From Flavobacteriaceae bacterium (GTDB taxonomy: Bacteria > Bacteroidota > Bacteroidia > Flavobacteriales > Flavobacteriaceae): a stretch of 58,462 nucleotides of DNA. The stretch spans positions 1 to 58,462 of the forward strand of contig JAFMMH010000003.1 in the NCBI GenBank assembly GCA_017851655.1, in the 5' to 3' direction. The notes under the pieces are model-generated. The model saw nothing but the letters and a program-made list of their open reading frames with translations, did not search any database and was not told the DNA's origin. The position numbers and the translations under genes were made by a program. Of the stretch, positions 40,279-58,462 are shown in pieces (position 1 is the first letter of the stretch; the number at the start of each line of letters is the position of its first letter).

Positions 40279-41548
40279 GATAATCTACAGCTAAATTACT
40301 CAACGCCTCAACACCTAGTTTCATTCCAGCATCATCTACTTCAAAAGAAGGGGTGTGATGAGAAGGAGCTTCGCTTTCTTTCATACTCAAGGGTGTTCCT
40401 CCTAGAAAAAAGAAAAGTCCTGGAACTTCGTTTTGGAAGTAGGAAAAGTCTTCAGCTCCTGTAATGGCTTTAATTTCTATTACGTTTTTTTCTCCTGCAA
40501 CTCGTTGTAAAGTTGGAATCATTTTTTTAGTCAACAATTCATTATTGAAAGTAATATCTGCACCGTCTTGAATATCAATAGTTGCTTCTGCACGAAAGGC
40601 TTTCGCAATAGCAGGAACCATTTCTTCCATCCTTGTCCTGATTAATTCTTTCATATCACGATCCAAAGTCCTGATGGTTCCTATCATTTCTAAACTTTCA
40701 GGAATGATGTTAAACCGAATCCCAGAATGGATTGATCCAACTGAAATAACAGCTCCTTCTTTAGTAAGTTGAGATTCACGACTAATTATAGTTTGTAACC
40801 CGTTAATGATTTGTGCACTTGCTACGATTGGGTCCACACTTTGCCAAGGTGTAGAACCGTGCGCTTGTTTCCCTTTTACATTGATCACAAAACGTTGAGA
40901 GGCAGCCATCATTCCTCCTGGTTTATAAGTTATTTTACCTACATGGGTTCCCGAGTTTATGTGCAATCCAAAGATTGCATCTACTTTAGGGTTTTCAAGT
41001 ACTCCTTCTTCAACCATTAATTTTGCCCCACCTTTTTCTCCTGGTGGTGGGCCTTCTTCAGCTGGTTGAAAGATGAACTTAATAGTTCCTGGAAAATTTC
41101 TATTCTTTGAGAGTACCTCAGCGACTCCCATCAAAATGGCTACATGAGTATCGTGACCGCAGGCGTGCATAACTCCAGTTTCTTGACCATTAAATATCGA
41201 CCTAACTTTTGATTTATAAGGAAGATTATTTCGCTCAACTACGGGCAGGGCATCCATGTCAGCTCTTAAGGCTACTACTTTTCCTTTTTTGTTTCCTTTT
41301 AGTAAGCCTACAACACCAGTGTGTGCCACTCCAGTCTGTACTTCAATACCAAGTGATTCTAGATGCTTAGCAACATACTCGGCTGTTTTAAACTCCCTAT
41401 TAGAAAGTTCTGGGTTTTCATGAATATGATGTCTCCACTCAATGAGTTTAGACTCGACATCATTAAAATGATTTGGATTGATTTGTGCAAAAAGGATAGC
41501 TGTATATCCAAAAACAAAAAGCAGTGAGTATAAGAGATTTGATTTCAA
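40265..41548 (-). CDS. M20-family amidohydrolase (N-acyl-amino-acid type), exported
   Basis: 427 residues. A signal peptide (MKSNLLYSLLFVFGYTAILFAQ) is followed by the M20D peptidase/amidohydrolase core: VALRADMDALPV, VMHACGHDTHVAILMG with metal-binding Cys-Gly-His-Asp, FIFQPAEEGPPPGEKGG (metal-binding Glu-Glu), and a C-terminal EIKAITGAEDFSYFQNEVP with a late metal ligand. Family members hydrolyse N-acyl amino acids, hippurate or auxin conjugates. The start is a TTG at 41548, the only start codon that keeps the full signal peptide. It converges on the patatin gene. Confidence 0.92.
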   Translation of the reverse strand: MKSNLLYSLLFVFGYTAILFAQINPNHFNDVESKLIEWRHHIHENPELSNREFKTAEYVAKHLESLGIEVQTGVAHTGVVGLLKGNKKGKVVALRADMDALPVVERNNLPYKSKVRSIFNGQETGVMHACGHDTHVAILMGVAEVLSKNRNFPGTIKFIFQPAEEGPPPGEKGGAKLMVEEGVLENPKVDAIFGLHINSGTHVGKITYKPGGMMAASQRFVINVKGKQAHGSTPWQSVDPIVASAQIINGLQTIISRESQLTKEGAVISVGSIHSGIRFNIIPESLEMIGTIRTLDRDMKELIRTRMEEMVPAIAKAFRAEATIDIQDGADITFNNELLTKKMIPTLQRVAGEKNVIEIKAITGAEDFSYFQNEVPGLFFFLGGTPLSMKESEAPSHHTPSFEVDDAGMKLGVEALSNLAVDYLKMN

Positions 41549-41634
41549 AATGTTTTTTTTTTAAATATAGATGTTTATAATTAATTTGTCTAATCGATGA
41601 GAGAAAATAGATTATCCCTACTTTTAAGGGCGAT

Positions 41635-43959
41635 ATGAAAGAAGTTCCAAAAACCTTCCTAGAATCCTTAAATGAAGCACAACGAGACCCGGTTTTACAC
41701 AAGGAGGGGCCTTTGATTGTTATTGCTGGTGCAGGTTCTGGAAAAACACGTGTCCTCACTTATAGGATTGCAAACTTAATGGCATCAGGAGTAGATGCAT
41801 TTTCAATTTTGGCATTAACTTTTACAAACAAAGCTGCACGTGAAATGAAGTCGAGAATCGCAGAGTTGGTTGGAGAAAGTGAAGCTAAGAATCTTTGGAT
41901 GGGAACATTTCATTCCGTATTTGCAAGAATCCTAAGGCATGAAGGAGAAAAACTAGGCTTTCCTTCAAATTTCACCATCTATGATACCCAAGACTCCGAT
42001 CGATTGATTGCTTCAATCATAAAGGAAATGGGATTGGATAAAGATATTTATAAATACAAACAAGTCCGAAGTCGAATTTCTGCATTTAAAAACAGTCTTA
42101 TTACTGTGAAAGCCTATTACAATGACACTGACCTTCAAGAAGCTGACGCCATGTCCAAACGCCCTGAAATGGGAGCCATTTACAAAGAATATGTAGATCG
42201 ATGTTTTAAAGCAGGTGCTATGGATTTCGATGATTTATTACTTAGAACAAATGAACTTCTAAATAGACATCCAGATGTTTTAGCTAAATACCAAGATCGG
42301 TTTCGATACATTATGGTAGATGAGTACCAAGATACAAACCACTCTCAATACCTAATTGTTCGGGCACTGTCAGATCGATACCAAAACATTTGTGTAGTTG
42401 GAGATGATGCACAAAGTATTTATGCCTTTCGAGGAGCCAATATCAATAATATCCTCAACTTTCAAAAAGATTACGATGATGTAGCCTTATATAGATTAGA
42501 GCAAAATTATCGTTCTACAAAAACAATTGTAAACGCTGCAAATTCAATCATTAATCATAACCAAACAAAAATTGATAAAGTAGTTTGGACAGCTAATGAT
42601 GTGGGCAGTCAGATTCAATTAAACATGCTTTCAACAGATGCTGAGGAAGGAAGACATGTAGCTTCGACTATTTTTGAACATAAAATGCAATCCCAACGAA
42701 AGAATTCAGATTTCGCCATTCTGTATCGAACCAACGCACAATCTCGGGCAATGGAAGATGCACTTAGAAAAAGGGATATACCTTACCGAATTTATGGAGG
42801 ATTGTCTTTTTATCAGCGAAAAGAAATTAAAGATATCCTGGCTTATTTGAGATTGATTGTAAACCCCAAAGATGAGGAGAGCTTAAAACGAATCATTAAT
42901 TATCCCGCCAGAGGAATAGGACAGACAACAGTCGACAAATTGGTTGTAGCTTCAAAACAGTTCAATCTTTCGCTATTTGAAACGATTAATAAAGCCAGAG
43001 AGCTAGACTTAAAATTTAATGCAGGCACACTTTTAAAACTCTCCGATTTTACACTTTTAATCCAGCGATTTCAGATAGAAAATGAAGCCTTAAATGCTTT
43101 TGAAATGGCAGATCTCGTTACAAAAAAGGTCGGGTTTGTTCAGGAACTTAAAAAAGATGCTACACCAGAAGGTATTGCACGTATTGAAAACGTAGAAGAG
43201 CTTCTTAATGGAATGCGTGATTTTATTGAGGGTCAAGAAGAATTAGCAGACGCTACTGGGAGTCTTTCAGAATTCTTGGAGGATGTTGCCTTGGCTACAG
43301 ATTTAGATAAGGATGATGATCCTAATAGTGATCGGGTTGCTCTAATGACTATTCACCTAGCTAAGGGCTTGGAGTTTCCTTTTGTTTTTATCGTTGGAAT
43401 GGAAGAAGATTTATTCCCCTCAGCGATGAGTCTAAATACAAGATCAGAATTGGAAGAAGAAAGACGGCTGTTTTATGTAGCTTTAACTAGAGCAGAGGAA
43501 CGTGCCTTTCTTTCTTACACCTTATCTAGGTATCGTTGGGGAAAATTAATCGATGCTGAGCCGAGTCGTTTTATTGAAGAAATTGATCCTAAATACATCA
43601 ATAGCATTAAGCCCAAAGAATCATACCAGTATAAGCCCTTGATGGATACTTCTATATTCGAAAATGAAAGTCAGCCAAAAAGATTTTTTAAAAAACCCAG
43701 TCCAAAAGAAAAAACCATAACGACTCCAACTCCTACGCAATTGAAAAAATTGAGGGAAATTGATCAAATTAAACCCAGTCAATCAGATCAGGAACCACTT
43801 AAATTGATCGAAGGAATGGAAGTGGAGCATGCAAGATTTGGAACAGGTATAGTACAGTCAATAGAAGGGAATGGTAATGATAAAAAAGCAGTAATTGCTT
43901 TCAAAGGCTTTGGTGTCAAAAACCTTTTACTTCGGTTTGCCAAACTTAAAATCAAATAA
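41635..43959 (+). CDS. UvrD/PcrA-type SF1A helicase
   Basis: 774-residue DNA helicase. Motifs in order: LNEAQRDPVLHKEGPLIVIAGAGSGKTRVL (Q and I), LTFTNKAAREMKSRI (Ia), DEYQDTNHSQ (II), VVGDDAQSIYAFRGA (III), LEQNYRSTKTIV (IV), MTIHLAKGLEFPFVFIVGMEEDLFPS (V) and EEERRLFYVALTRAEERAFL (VI). The C-terminus ends with the Tudor-like GMEVEHARFGTGIVQSIEG module that binds RNA polymerase in PcrA/UvrD. It probably serves nucleotide excision and transcription-coupled repair. The next gene starts 7 bases later, so the two are probably co-transcribed. Confidence 0.95.
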   Translation: MKEVPKTFLESLNEAQRDPVLHKEGPLIVIAGAGSGKTRVLTYRIANLMASGVDAFSILALTFTNKAAREMKSRIAELVGESEAKNLWMGTFHSVFARILRHEGEKLGFPSNFTIYDTQDSDRLIASIIKEMGLDKDIYKYKQVRSRISAFKNSLITVKAYYNDTDLQEADAMSKRPEMGAIYKEYVDRCFKAGAMDFDDLLLRTNELLNRHPDVLAKYQDRFRYIMVDEYQDTNHSQYLIVRALSDRYQNICVVGDDAQSIYAFRGANINNILNFQKDYDDVALYRLEQNYRSTKTIVNAANSIINHNQTKIDKVVWTANDVGSQIQLNMLSTDAEEGRHVASTIFEHKMQSQRKNSDFAILYRTNAQSRAMEDALRKRDIPYRIYGGLSFYQRKEIKDILAYLRLIVNPKDEESLKRIINYPARGIGQTTVDKLVVASKQFNLSLFETINKARELDLKFNAGTLLKLSDFTLLIQRFQIENEALNAFEMADLVTKKVGFVQELKKDATPEGIARIENVEELLNGMRDFIEGQEELADATGSLSEFLEDVALATDLDKDDDPNSDRVALMTIHLAKGLEFPFVFIVGMEEDLFPSAMSLNTRSELEEERRLFYVALTRAEERAFLSYTLSRYRWGKLIDAEPSRFIEEIDPKYINSIKPKESYQYKPLMDTSIFENESQPKRFFKKPSPKEKTITTPTPTQLKKLREIDQIKPSQSDQEPLKLIEGMEVEHARFGTGIVQSIEGNGNDKKAVIAFKGFGVKNLLLRFAKLKIK

Positions 43960-56544: not shown

Positions 56545-57363
56545 ATGCAAAAATTACCAAAAATTGGACTACCTATCATTTTACTAGTAGTCGTCTTACT
56601 TATTTTCGTCTCTAAATCTTCAATTAATATTGGATATGGAGAAGCGGGTGTTTTATTTAAAACATTCGGTGGAGGAGTTGTAACTGATAAACCTCCATTA
56701 GGAGAAGGGTTTCATATTATCGCACCTTGGAATAAGGTCTATATCTATAACGTTAAACAGCAAGAAGTCTTTGAAAGCAAAATGCAAGTCTTATCTTCTA
56801 ACGGATTAGAAATCAGTCTCGATATTTCGGTATTATATCAACCAAAAATTGATGAACTGGGCTTGTTACACAAAACAAAAGGTGAAAACTATCTCAACAT
56901 AATTATTATTCCTCAAATAAGAGCAGTCGCAAGATCTGTTGTTGGACGTTATACTCCAGAACAATTGTATTCTACAAAACGAGATGCTATTCAAAATGAA
57001 ATATTTGAAGAGACAAAAAAAGTAGTGGAGGATCAATATGTTCAGCTGAATGCAGTTTTAGTTCGTGATGTTACGTTACCTATCGCAATCCGAGAAGCAA
57101 TCGAACGTAAACTAAATCAAGAACAAGAAGCCTTAGAATATGAATTTAGAATTGAAAAGGCTACACAAGAAGCAGAACGTCAACGTATTGATGCAGAAGG
57201 AAAAGCTACTGCAAACAGAATTTTAAGTGCGTCATTGACTGATAAAATTCTTCAAGAAAAGGGAATTGAAGCTACTATAAAGCTATCCGAATCACCCAAT
57301 TCTAAGATAATTGTCATTGGAAGTGGAAAAAACGGTTTACCAATTATTTTAGGTAATCAATAA
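56545..57363 (+). CDS. Prohibitin/SPFH-family membrane protein
   Basis: 272 residues. One N-terminal membrane segment (GLPIILLVVVLLIFVS), then an SPFH/Band 7 domain (about 25-195; LGEGFHIIAPWNKVYIYNVK) and a Glu/Gln/Arg-rich coiled coil (about 185-225, EQEALEYEFRIEKATQEAER). Bacterial prohibitins form large ring-like assemblies at the membrane and are linked to protein quality control; the exact partner (for example FtsH) is not shown here. It ends the run starting at lpxD. Confidence 0.92.
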   Translation: MQKLPKIGLPIILLVVVLLIFVSKSSINIGYGEAGVLFKTFGGGVVTDKPPLGEGFHIIAPWNKVYIYNVKQQEVFESKMQVLSSNGLEISLDISVLYQPKIDELGLLHKTKGENYLNIIIIPQIRAVARSVVGRYTPEQLYSTKRDAIQNEIFEETKKVVEDQYVQLNAVLVRDVTLPIAIREAIERKLNQEQEALEYEFRIEKATQEAERQRIDAEGKATANRILSASLTDKILQEKGIEATIKLSESPNSKIIVIGSGKNGLPIILGNQ

Positions 57364-57389
57364 GCAATACTTTATTTAAATATTTTAAA

Positions 57390-57397
57390 TATATTTG
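57390..57397 (+). promoter_or_regulatory. -7 element of the his operon leader
   Basis: TATATTTG, full TANNTTTG match, 9 bases before the hisL ATG (57406). No clear -33 TTTG lies 19 bases upstream. The predicted 5' leader is only about 4-5 bases. Confidence 0.55.
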
Positions 57398-57405
57398 CAG
57401 CTCAA

Positions 57406-57462
57406 ATGACAACAAAGACAATACATATACATCATAGTAACACTCATTCAAACGAGATGTAA
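57406..57462 (+). CDS. hisL: Histidine operon leader peptide
   Basis: Eighteen codons, reading M-T-T-K-T-I-H-I-H-H-S-N-T-H-S-N-E-M, with stop TAA at 57460-57462. Histidine takes 4 of 18 positions (codons 7, 9, 10, 14), three of them within four codons. It sits 68 bases before hisG, after a -7 element and just before a perfect terminator. This is the architecture of ribosome-mediated attenuation. It is too short for standard gene finders. Its product has no expected function beyond translation itself. Confidence 0.85.
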   Translation: MTTKTIHIHHSNTHSNEM

Positions 57463-57517
57463 TATGATGTCTATGGATCTATTACAAACCCGTTTGAGAG
57501 ATCAGACGGGTTTTTTT
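57429..57517 (+). promoter_or_regulatory. His operon attenuator (alternative hairpins)
   Basis: Three pairings are visible. ACATCATA (57429-57436, over the His codons) pairs with TATGATGT (57463-57470). TCAAACG (57448-57454) pairs perfectly with CGTTTGA (57491-57497), the 5' arm of the terminator, which would make an antiterminator. The terminator pairs 57486-57497 with 57502-57513. A ribosome stalled at the His codons would leave TCAAACG free to block the terminator; one that reaches the stop would cover it and let the terminator form. Consistent with histidine-scarcity readthrough. Confidence 0.75.
57486..57517 (+). terminator. Intrinsic terminator in the his leader
   Basis: AAACCCGT (57486-57493) pairs with ACGGGTTT (57506-57513), continuing through a T-G wobble and TGA/TCA to a GAGA loop (57498-57501): 12 pairs in all, then a run of seven T's (57511-57517). 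It lies upstream of hisG (57531), so it only makes sense as a regulated terminator. Confidence 0.9.
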
Positions 57518-57530
57518 ATTAAAAAATGAT

Positions 57531-58382
57531 ATGGTACGAATAGCAATTCAAAAATCAGGAAGACTTAATGAAGACTCATTAGGCTTATTAAAAAGCTGTG
57601 GTATTTCTATTGATAATGGCAAAGATCAACTCAAGGCAGCTGCAAGAAACTTTCCTATGGAGGTATTTTATCTTCGTAATGGGGATATTCCACAGTATAT
57701 GCGTGATGGTGTTGTTGATTTGGCTATTCTAGGAGAAAACTTGCTAGTTGAAAAAGGGGAAGACCTTCAGGTAATTGAACAATTGGGATTTTCAAAATGC
57801 AGAGTGTCTATAGCAGTTCCGAAAAACATTGCTTTTAATGGAGCTCAAGATCTTGAAGGTAAGCGGATCGCTACCTCATATCCAAACACGGTTAATGCTT
57901 TTTTAGAAGCGAATCAAATCAGCGCTGATTTACATATTATCAATGGTTCAGTGGAGATAGCACCCAATATTGGTTTGGCAGATGCCATTTGTGATATCGT
58001 TTCCAGTGGAAGTACATTATTCAAGAATAATTTAAAAGAGGTCATTGAAATTACGCGTTCACAAGCTGTTTTGGTTCAAGCACCTTCCGTATCTACTGAG
58101 GCAAAACAAACCATTGAAAAATTACGATTTAGAATTCAAGCAGTTTTAAGAGCCAAACAATCTAAATATATTTTACTTAATGCACCCAACAATAAAATTG
58201 ATGCGATCAGTAAAATTCTCCCAGTATTAAAAAGTCCAACGGTTTTACCCCTTGCACAAGATGGATGGAGTTCTTTACACTCCGTGGTAAATGCGGTAGA
58301 TTTTTGGGAAGTTATCGACCAATTAAAAGCAGAAGGAGCAGAAGATATTTTGGTTTGCCCTATTGAAAAAATGGTGTTATAA
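57531..58382 (+). CDS. hisG: ATP phosphoribosyltransferase, long form
   Basis: First histidine-pathway enzyme, ATP plus PRPP to phosphoribosyl-ATP. Length is 283 residues, the long hexameric form with a C-terminal ACT-like regulatory domain (from about 205) that binds histidine for feedback inhibition; it does not need HisZ. IAIQKSGRLNEDSLGLLKSC at the N-terminus, DIPQYMRDGVVDLAILGENLL, and ADAICDIVSSGSTLFKNNL (PRPP-binding). So the operon is controlled both at transcription (attenuator) and at enzyme level. Its stop shares a base with the hisD start. Confidence 0.96.
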   Translation: MVRIAIQKSGRLNEDSLGLLKSCGISIDNGKDQLKAAARNFPMEVFYLRNGDIPQYMRDGVVDLAILGENLLVEKGEDLQVIEQLGFSKCRVSIAVPKNIAFNGAQDLEGKRIATSYPNTVNAFLEANQISADLHIINGSVEIAPNIGLADAICDIVSSGSTLFKNNLKEVIEITRSQAVLVQAPSVSTEAKQTIEKLRFRIQAVLRAKQSKYILLNAPNNKIDAISKILPVLKSPTVLPLAQDGWSSLHSVVNAVDFWEVIDQLKAEGAEDILVCPIEKMVL

Positions 58383-58462
58383 TGAAGCAATATATCAATC
58401 CTTCATCTTCTACTTGGGCTTCACTTATTGAGCGTCCCACAGAGAAATACGAAACCCTAGAA
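58382..58462 (+). CDS. hisD: Histidinol dehydrogenase, N-terminus only (window edge)
   Basis: 27 codons visible, overlapping the hisG stop (TAATG) by one base. The reading MKQYINPSSSTWASLIERPT resembles the N-terminal segment of HisD, which is the usual gene after hisG in Bacteroidota and other phyla. The assignment rests mainly on position and on the ERPT segment; the catalytic part is outside the window. Confidence 0.75.
   Translation, partial: MKQYINPSSSTWASLIERPTEKYETLE

Follow-up and report, generated by a model that had tools for sequence, protein, structure and literature searches.

The 58,462-nucleotide window, i.e., the whole stretch of DNA analyzed here, carries immediately upstream of hisG an element whose sequence and comparative features point, with high confidence, to a ribosome-mediated transcription attenuator of the his operon, which very probably turns the his genes on when histidine is short. 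A leader frame, a terminator and an antiterminator strand lie directly 5′ of hisG in 93 distinct related loci, and these parts, their conservation and the changes that keep their pairs intact can be read directly from the alignments.

Leader frame, putative promoter box and gene context

The element lies on the forward strand, with hisG (57531-58382, forward strand) as the first gene 3′ of it, coding for an ATP phosphoribosyltransferase with PF01634 (HisG) and PF08029 (HisG_C) domains. The probable start of hisD (58382-58462, forward strand) follows and is cut by the contig end; its 27 amino acids in the window have no Pfam match, and the assignment goes by the close relative L032, in which the gene after hisG codes for a histidinol dehydrogenase (PF00815). 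An earlier note made from this DNA had claimed an 18-codon ATG frame at 57406-57462 with histidines at codons 7, 9, 10 and 14, followed before hisG by a terminator with a T-run at 57486-57517, and both hold base by base at the stated coordinates. The frame (forward strand) encodes MTTKTIHIHHSNTHSNEM and ends in a stop codon at 57460-57462; codons 7, 9 and 10 (57424-57435) are the predicted regulatory histidine codons, and the fourth histidine is encoded at 57445-57447. When 57364-57530 was dinucleotide-shuffled 20000 times, an ATG frame of 8-25 codons containing four or more histidines arose in 85 cases. Counting both strands, the whole window has 731 ATG frames of this length, of which two contain as many histidines, the other one being antisense within hisG. 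The terminator is made up of AAACCCGTTTGA (57486-57497, forward strand; segment 3), GAGA and TCAGACGGGTTT (57502-57513), the last forming segment 4 (57502-57517, forward strand) together with the T-run at 57511-57517. The hisG ATG follows the T-run after a gap of only 13 nt.

For comparison, HisG was sought in 60 genomes, including that of the window, and found in 45; from genome contigs we took the best 80 of 552 confirmed hisG loci, whose closest named records are Flavobacteriaceae. Removal of duplicates left 93 distinct hisG-upstream regions, with the window's own counted in. A leader with at least two histidines is present at the equivalent place in 90 of them as parsed by a script and in three more (L057, L059 and L071) as read by eye, the latter being kept outside the 90. 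Among these 90 leaders, two histidines occur in 10, three in 47, four in 18, five in 14 and six in one; codon 7 is a histidine codon in 87, codon 9 likewise in 87 and codon 14 in two. The histidine codons specify the best-kept residues of the leader peptide, and a T-run terminator of the form CCCGTTTG[A/T]...CGGG, exactly the form for which the script looked, is found in 93 of 93 loci. The lack of conservation in relatives that the earlier note had considered is thus not borne out.

Directly 5′ of the his leader is a Band_7/SPFH gene (56545-57363; Pfam match), a relative of which is found in 85 of the 92 other loci. With this gene ending at 57363 and the hairpin being, by its fold energy, a strong terminator, the hairpin might be taken to terminate the Band_7 gene, the His-rich frame being incidental. 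However, the element is kept in seven loci where the stretch examined showed no Band_7 relative, and between the Band_7 gene and the terminator one finds a putative promoter box, a His frame whose length is nearly fixed and a strand that can compete for pairing with the terminator. Distant relatives, too, have a His leader before hisG. We consider a plain Band_7 terminator very improbable and reject it.

For the attenuator that we favor, the putative promoter box is TATATTTG (57390-57397, forward strand), recognized by sequence match and comparison of loci as a -7 box of the Bacteroidota sigma-A type (TAnnTTTG), whose end lies 8 nt ahead of the leader ATG. In 62 of the 93 loci, TAnnTTTG lies no more than 25 nt from the start codon of the leader (4-8 nt away in 60 of them), and another 23 have TAnnTTTA at 6-8 nt; taking both boxes together, 83 loci have one at 4-8 nt ahead of the start codon and eight have neither. 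A random-window control gave 580 of 4650 but is not clean, as its windows can include the box itself. Passages of a study on Flavobacterium psychrophilum place the box at -12 to -5 (PMC9723704); therefore, with the same placement, the leader is predicted to have a 5′ UTR of 0-4 nt, and transcription probably starts at about 57402, some 4 nt ahead of the leader ATG. This would imply near-leaderless translation initiation of the leader as a distinctive trait. In the relevant portions of the respective sources, leaderless mRNAs amount to 5.5% in F. psychrophilum and Shine-Dalgarno signals are given as absent in bacteria of this kind (PMC9723704), and in Bacteroides thetaiotaomicron about 3.7% of 5′ UTRs are shorter than 10 nt (PMC7366714). 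Several of the more distant leaders have, by eye, their closest box of this kind further off, and the near-leaderless trait is, therefore, not phylum-wide.

Predicted pairing of terminator, antiterminator and protector hairpin

The final leader codons contain TCAAACG (57448-57454, forward strand), the outer part of segment 2, which is the putative antiterminator strand. The earlier note had paired it with the terminator 5′ arm, and the match is exact: TCAAACG is the perfect complement of CGTTTGA (57491-57497) within segment 3, with all seven pairs present in 92 of the 93 loci as against 172 of 4650 shuffled windows under an equal best-of-window choice, a control made because segment 2 was first chosen by its likeness to the consensus, which favors pairing. 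The antiterminator can be extended by an inner strand, TGTAATA (57458-57464, forward strand), which in the predicted fold pairs with TATTACA (57480-57486, forward strand). Measured against dinucleotide shuffles, the fold z of the window is -3.1 for the antiterminator, -7.4 for the terminator and -3.5 for leader-plus-spacer. Across the 90 sequences free of N (L010, L012 and L058 contain N and were left out), the antiterminator folds show a median z of -4.13, with z < -2 in 87, and the terminator folds a median of -6.18, with z < -2 in 90 of 90. The antiterminator is predicted to be mutually exclusive with the terminator.

Segment 3 is CGTTTGA in 91 of the 93 loci and CGTTTGT in two (L079 and L098), both of which have ACAAACG as segment 2. 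This segment is thus nearly invariant, and its two alternative partners vary around it, chiefly by changes that G-U pairing tolerates: segment 2 occurs in 11 sequence variants and segment 4 in six, the differences being mostly A-to-G and C-to-T with the pairing to segment 3 retained (650 of 651 cells paired for segment 2 and 648 of 651 for segment 4). A separate variation is seen in L095 and L105, where the antiterminator strand carries CTTAGGCGAG and the leader stop codon thus falls inside the strand, with G-U pairs keeping the pairing.

In a 52-row alignment (A1), 94.9% of the cells of the outer antiterminator are paired, a value matched by 44 of 500 shuffles, and slid versions of the helix reach at most 49.8%. 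Its covariation score is attained by four of 500 shuffles, its two pairs changed on both sides by 27 of 500 and its number of pair types by 187 of 500; that shuffles can score as high on paired cells and on pair types is due to the near-constancy of segment 3. The terminator, including a small CTC...GAG hairpin, is paired in 96.4% of its cells (one of 500 shuffles). The inner antiterminator helix is weakly supported, its covariation score being reached by 32 of 500 shuffles and exceeded by two slid versions.

The antiterminator decamer begins 40 or 41 nt from the start codon in 76 of the 90 parsed leaders, and the leader stop codon ends 4 or 6 nt past it in 84. It is translated in one frame in 48 leaders and in another in 42, such that leader C-termini of the SNEM, QAR and DQMR types are all encoded by one RNA decamer. 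This reading in two frames in different clades argues that the RNA, not the peptide, is under selection, and that the decamer is conserved as RNA. It also bears on the proposal that the leader might control hisG translation, or be a nascent-chain arrest peptide, rather than act on transcription termination, for which one could adduce a short frame ahead of a gene and the His leaders of some distant families in which no intrinsic terminator was detected. This we hold to be extremely unlikely, as the C-terminal peptide varies though the decamer is shared, the T-run terminator is universal among the 93 loci and the histidine codons are what the leader keeps best; an arrest peptide was rejected on the ground that the leader C-terminus is not kept as a peptide.

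Under the attenuator reading, the strongly conserved columns of the alignment coincide with its parts, namely the start codon, the histidine codons, the antiterminator decamer and the terminator. This pattern speaks against another explanation, which conserved structure and alternative folds in a 5′ element could suggest, i.e., a histidine- or tRNA-binding riboswitch or a T-box with an incidental frame. Moreover, the 4227 families of Rfam 15 yielded no match at gathering score to 56800-58462 of the window (five weaker matches were seen, none of them his), and no family matched eight related loci at that score. We rejected the riboswitch or T-box as exceedingly improbable on both counts. The Rfam His leader, which the earlier note had put forward for a covariance-model search, was likewise not matched at gathering score.

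Returning to the attenuator, a further hairpin would act as its protector. The 5′ arm, segment 1, comprises CATA and ACATCATA (57424-57436, forward strand) and the 3′ arm TATGATGT and TATG (57463-57475, forward strand). The 8-base pairing at its core, between ACATCATA (57429-57436) and its exact complement TATGATGT (57463-57470), had been described as perfect, which is true of the window, but it is not kept as a fixed helix, and RNAalifold predicted no consensus helix for the hairpin from a 21-sequence alignment. In these 21 genus-type sequences, 78.5% of the cells of the window's 1:2 helix are paired (one of 500 shuffles as high), and 223 of 500 shuffles have as many pairs with changes on both sides. 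The pairing of the His region with the spacer averages -11.9 kcal/mol in native combinations versus -9.2 across lineages, and the native pairing beats nine tenths of its own cross-pairings in only 17 of 52 sequences. With a median z of -1.97 for the leader-plus-spacer fold, and because z falls below -2 in just 44 of 90 sequences, the protector hairpin appears moderately supported and less certain than the antiterminator and terminator.

TCAAACG indeed sits in the loop of the His-codon hairpin, from which the earlier note had derived an order of segments departing from the linear one. Such an order is not needed: the inner antiterminator strand (57458-57464) overlaps the hairpin 3′ arm (57463-57475), and the standard competition of 1:2, 2:3 and 3:4 can therefore fit. 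We place moderate confidence in this linear scheme, which rests on the weakly supported inner helix.

Proposed response to histidine supply and known attenuators

The start site, translation, ribosome positions and histidine response that we infer from these parts would combine as follows. RNA polymerase would start roughly 4 nt in front of the leader ATG, and a ribosome would load at the near-leaderless 5′ end of the mRNA. With ample His-tRNA, it would reach the stop codon (57460-57462) and cover segment 2 (57448-57465), the extent of this masking resting on the usual ribosome footprint; segments 3 and 4 would then form the terminator and transcription would stop before hisG. With scarce His-tRNA, the ribosome would wait at histidine codons 7-10 (57424-57435), 13-24 nt short of segment 2, which would be free to take segment 3 (TCAAACG:CGTTTGA, perhaps along with TGTAATA:TATTACA). 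The capture of segment 3 would block the terminator and allow transcription of hisG and the genes behind it. If no ribosome were present, segment 2 would be trapped by the pairing of segment 1 with 57463-57475, leaving the terminator free to form. Speaking against the scheme, histidine codon 14 touches segment 2, and a ribosome waiting there would mask it; this codon is, as noted, hardly conserved.

The principle of attenuation is classic, and the enteric his attenuator, hisL, is represented in Rfam as His_leader (RF00514), its leader having a run of seven histidine codons. The element described here shares with it the histidine-codon leader before hisG and an antiterminator and terminator that are predicted to exclude each other. 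It differs in the simpler 1:2/2:3/3:4 layout proposed for it, where the antiterminator strand forms part of the final codons of the leader, in the near-leaderless start suggested by the promoter box, in having no Rfam match at gathering score and in its few histidine codons, often arranged as HxHH or HHH. Vitreschak and others (2004) are said to have mentioned candidate attenuators in Bacteroidetes/Chlorobi.

The portions considered of the 2021 study on F. psychrophilum offer strong clues that amino-acid operons are preceded by leader-peptide attenuators, and they report a 5′ element of hisG that is conserved in other Flavobacteriaceae genera and has no Rfam hit (PMC9723704). By its description there, which in those portions comes without sequence or anatomy, it is very likely the same element. 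A treatment of his genes in the superphylum mentions attenuation, in the sections concerned, for enterics only (PMC8305728). Bacteroid-trp (RF01692; Weinberg 2010, PMC2864571) figures in excerpts of its source as a cis-regulatory motif of Bacteroidetes with a name pointing to trp genes; it belongs to another operon and is absent from the matches to the window region and to the trp leader of the same genome. The poly-Cys attenuators of mycobacteria, as presented in part of their source (PMC9031893), likewise have a leaderless short ORF with cognate codons, but pertain to another phylum and another amino acid and control downstream translation. Among the papers listed by searches of an open-access collection, with subscription papers mostly outside this scope, we recognized no description of the element's anatomy. 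The version seen here recurs in relatives and has no RNA-family match at gathering score.

Distribution in the Bacteroidota and leaders of other operons

At E up to 0.01, and with the own genome counted, model R1 has matches in 86 of the 246 genomes searched for the order and in 55 of the 296 searched for the phylum. All 39 same-family genomes listed have a match; 160 genomes of the order search have none, and the 20 listed among these are all of the same order. In 14 of 14 same-family genomes, those in both the R1 and the HisG listings, the best match lies directly 5′ of hisG. Of 20 other matches that were fetched, 11 are at hisG with a His leader and nine are not, one of the latter being an Ile/Val-rich leader (L157) and the other eight having no recognized leader. 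Thus, R1 is unspecific at weak scores, and the 86 of 246 and 55 of 296 do not all represent this element.

HisG was found in 128 of 148 genomes of the phylum. Among 60 distant hisG-upstream regions, 41 have a frame with at least three histidines and 19 do not, and a script detected an intrinsic terminator in 18 of the 41; a few of these frames (e.g., L209, L211 and L219) are probably chance occurrences within coding sequence. Terminator sequences vary among the families of the phylum, and different leader ends pair with them: CAGGTAG with CCTACCTG, GGTAAGC with GCTTACC and CAGACGG with CCGTCTG. A complementarity test was applied to 31 leaders picked from the fetched R1 matches and the distant hisG regions for a visible His leader and terminator, plus the window; 30 gave a terminator and L165 did not. 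The leader end complements the terminator arm beyond shuffles (0.05) in 16 of the 30, window included, with a median helix of 6 versus 4.5 for an upstream control; the other 14 failed, some since the detector picked another hairpin. The histidine attenuator proposed in the earlier note accordingly finds support both in the 93 related loci and in these 16 phylum leaders that appear to keep the pairing.

Leaders were also met before other operons. The genome of the window has a trp leader, MNRTIIFLNGWWYAFQQ, before trpE (L229/L225; G000:C62, about 41300-42500), which begins 5 nt past another copy of TATATTTG, has the terminator AAGGCTTGTC/ATCAC/GACAAGCCTT and gave no Rfam match at gathering score. 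Scans of the stretches before ilvD, pheA and thrA of this genome found no leader, the first scan having misplaced the pheA gene start, the thrA stretch being an estimate and the second scan having taken only frames beside TAnnTTTG. In L157 (G076:C302, reverse strand), a class IV aminotransferase (PF01063) is preceded by the Ile/Val-rich leader MNQKNIIVISIAAVVIYNSQETAF, and GAAACGGC in the final codons of this leader is complementary to the terminator arm GCCGTTTC; it probably represents the same attenuator layout serving branched-chain amino acids.

In one distant family (f37), a leader with at least nine histidines precedes hisG in 10 of 10 sampled genomes (18 with HisG; loci L193-L197, L201-L203, L205 and L206), and an intrinsic terminator sought after this leader was found in none of the 10. 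Past the leader stop, the sequence is rich in C (0.23-0.29) and poor in G (0.06-0.10), making it a candidate Rho-dependent attenuator. Several of the loci show by eye a GTGC...GCAC repeat across the stop codon. In another family (f17; L180, L182, L183, L186 and L188), His-rich leaders precede hisG, and no intrinsic terminator was detected after them.

Taken jointly, these observations permit a broader reading to which we give somewhat less than an even chance. The his element may belong to a Bacteroidota-wide, uncatalogued class of attenuators in which the last leader codons are the antiterminator, a decoy of the terminator 3′ arm that the terminating ribosome covers. The class would be near-leaderless in Flavobacteriaceae, its layout would serve other amino acids, and in at least one distant family (f37) a C-rich, G-poor stretch would replace the intrinsic terminator in a candidate Rho-dependent his attenuator.

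For the Flavobacteriaceae, the element very likely reveals how histidine synthesis is regulated, and it provides an RNA element without an Rfam match along with a usable alignment. With its almost leaderless leader, it would offer a clean test of leader-peptide function in bacteria without Shine-Dalgarno signals.
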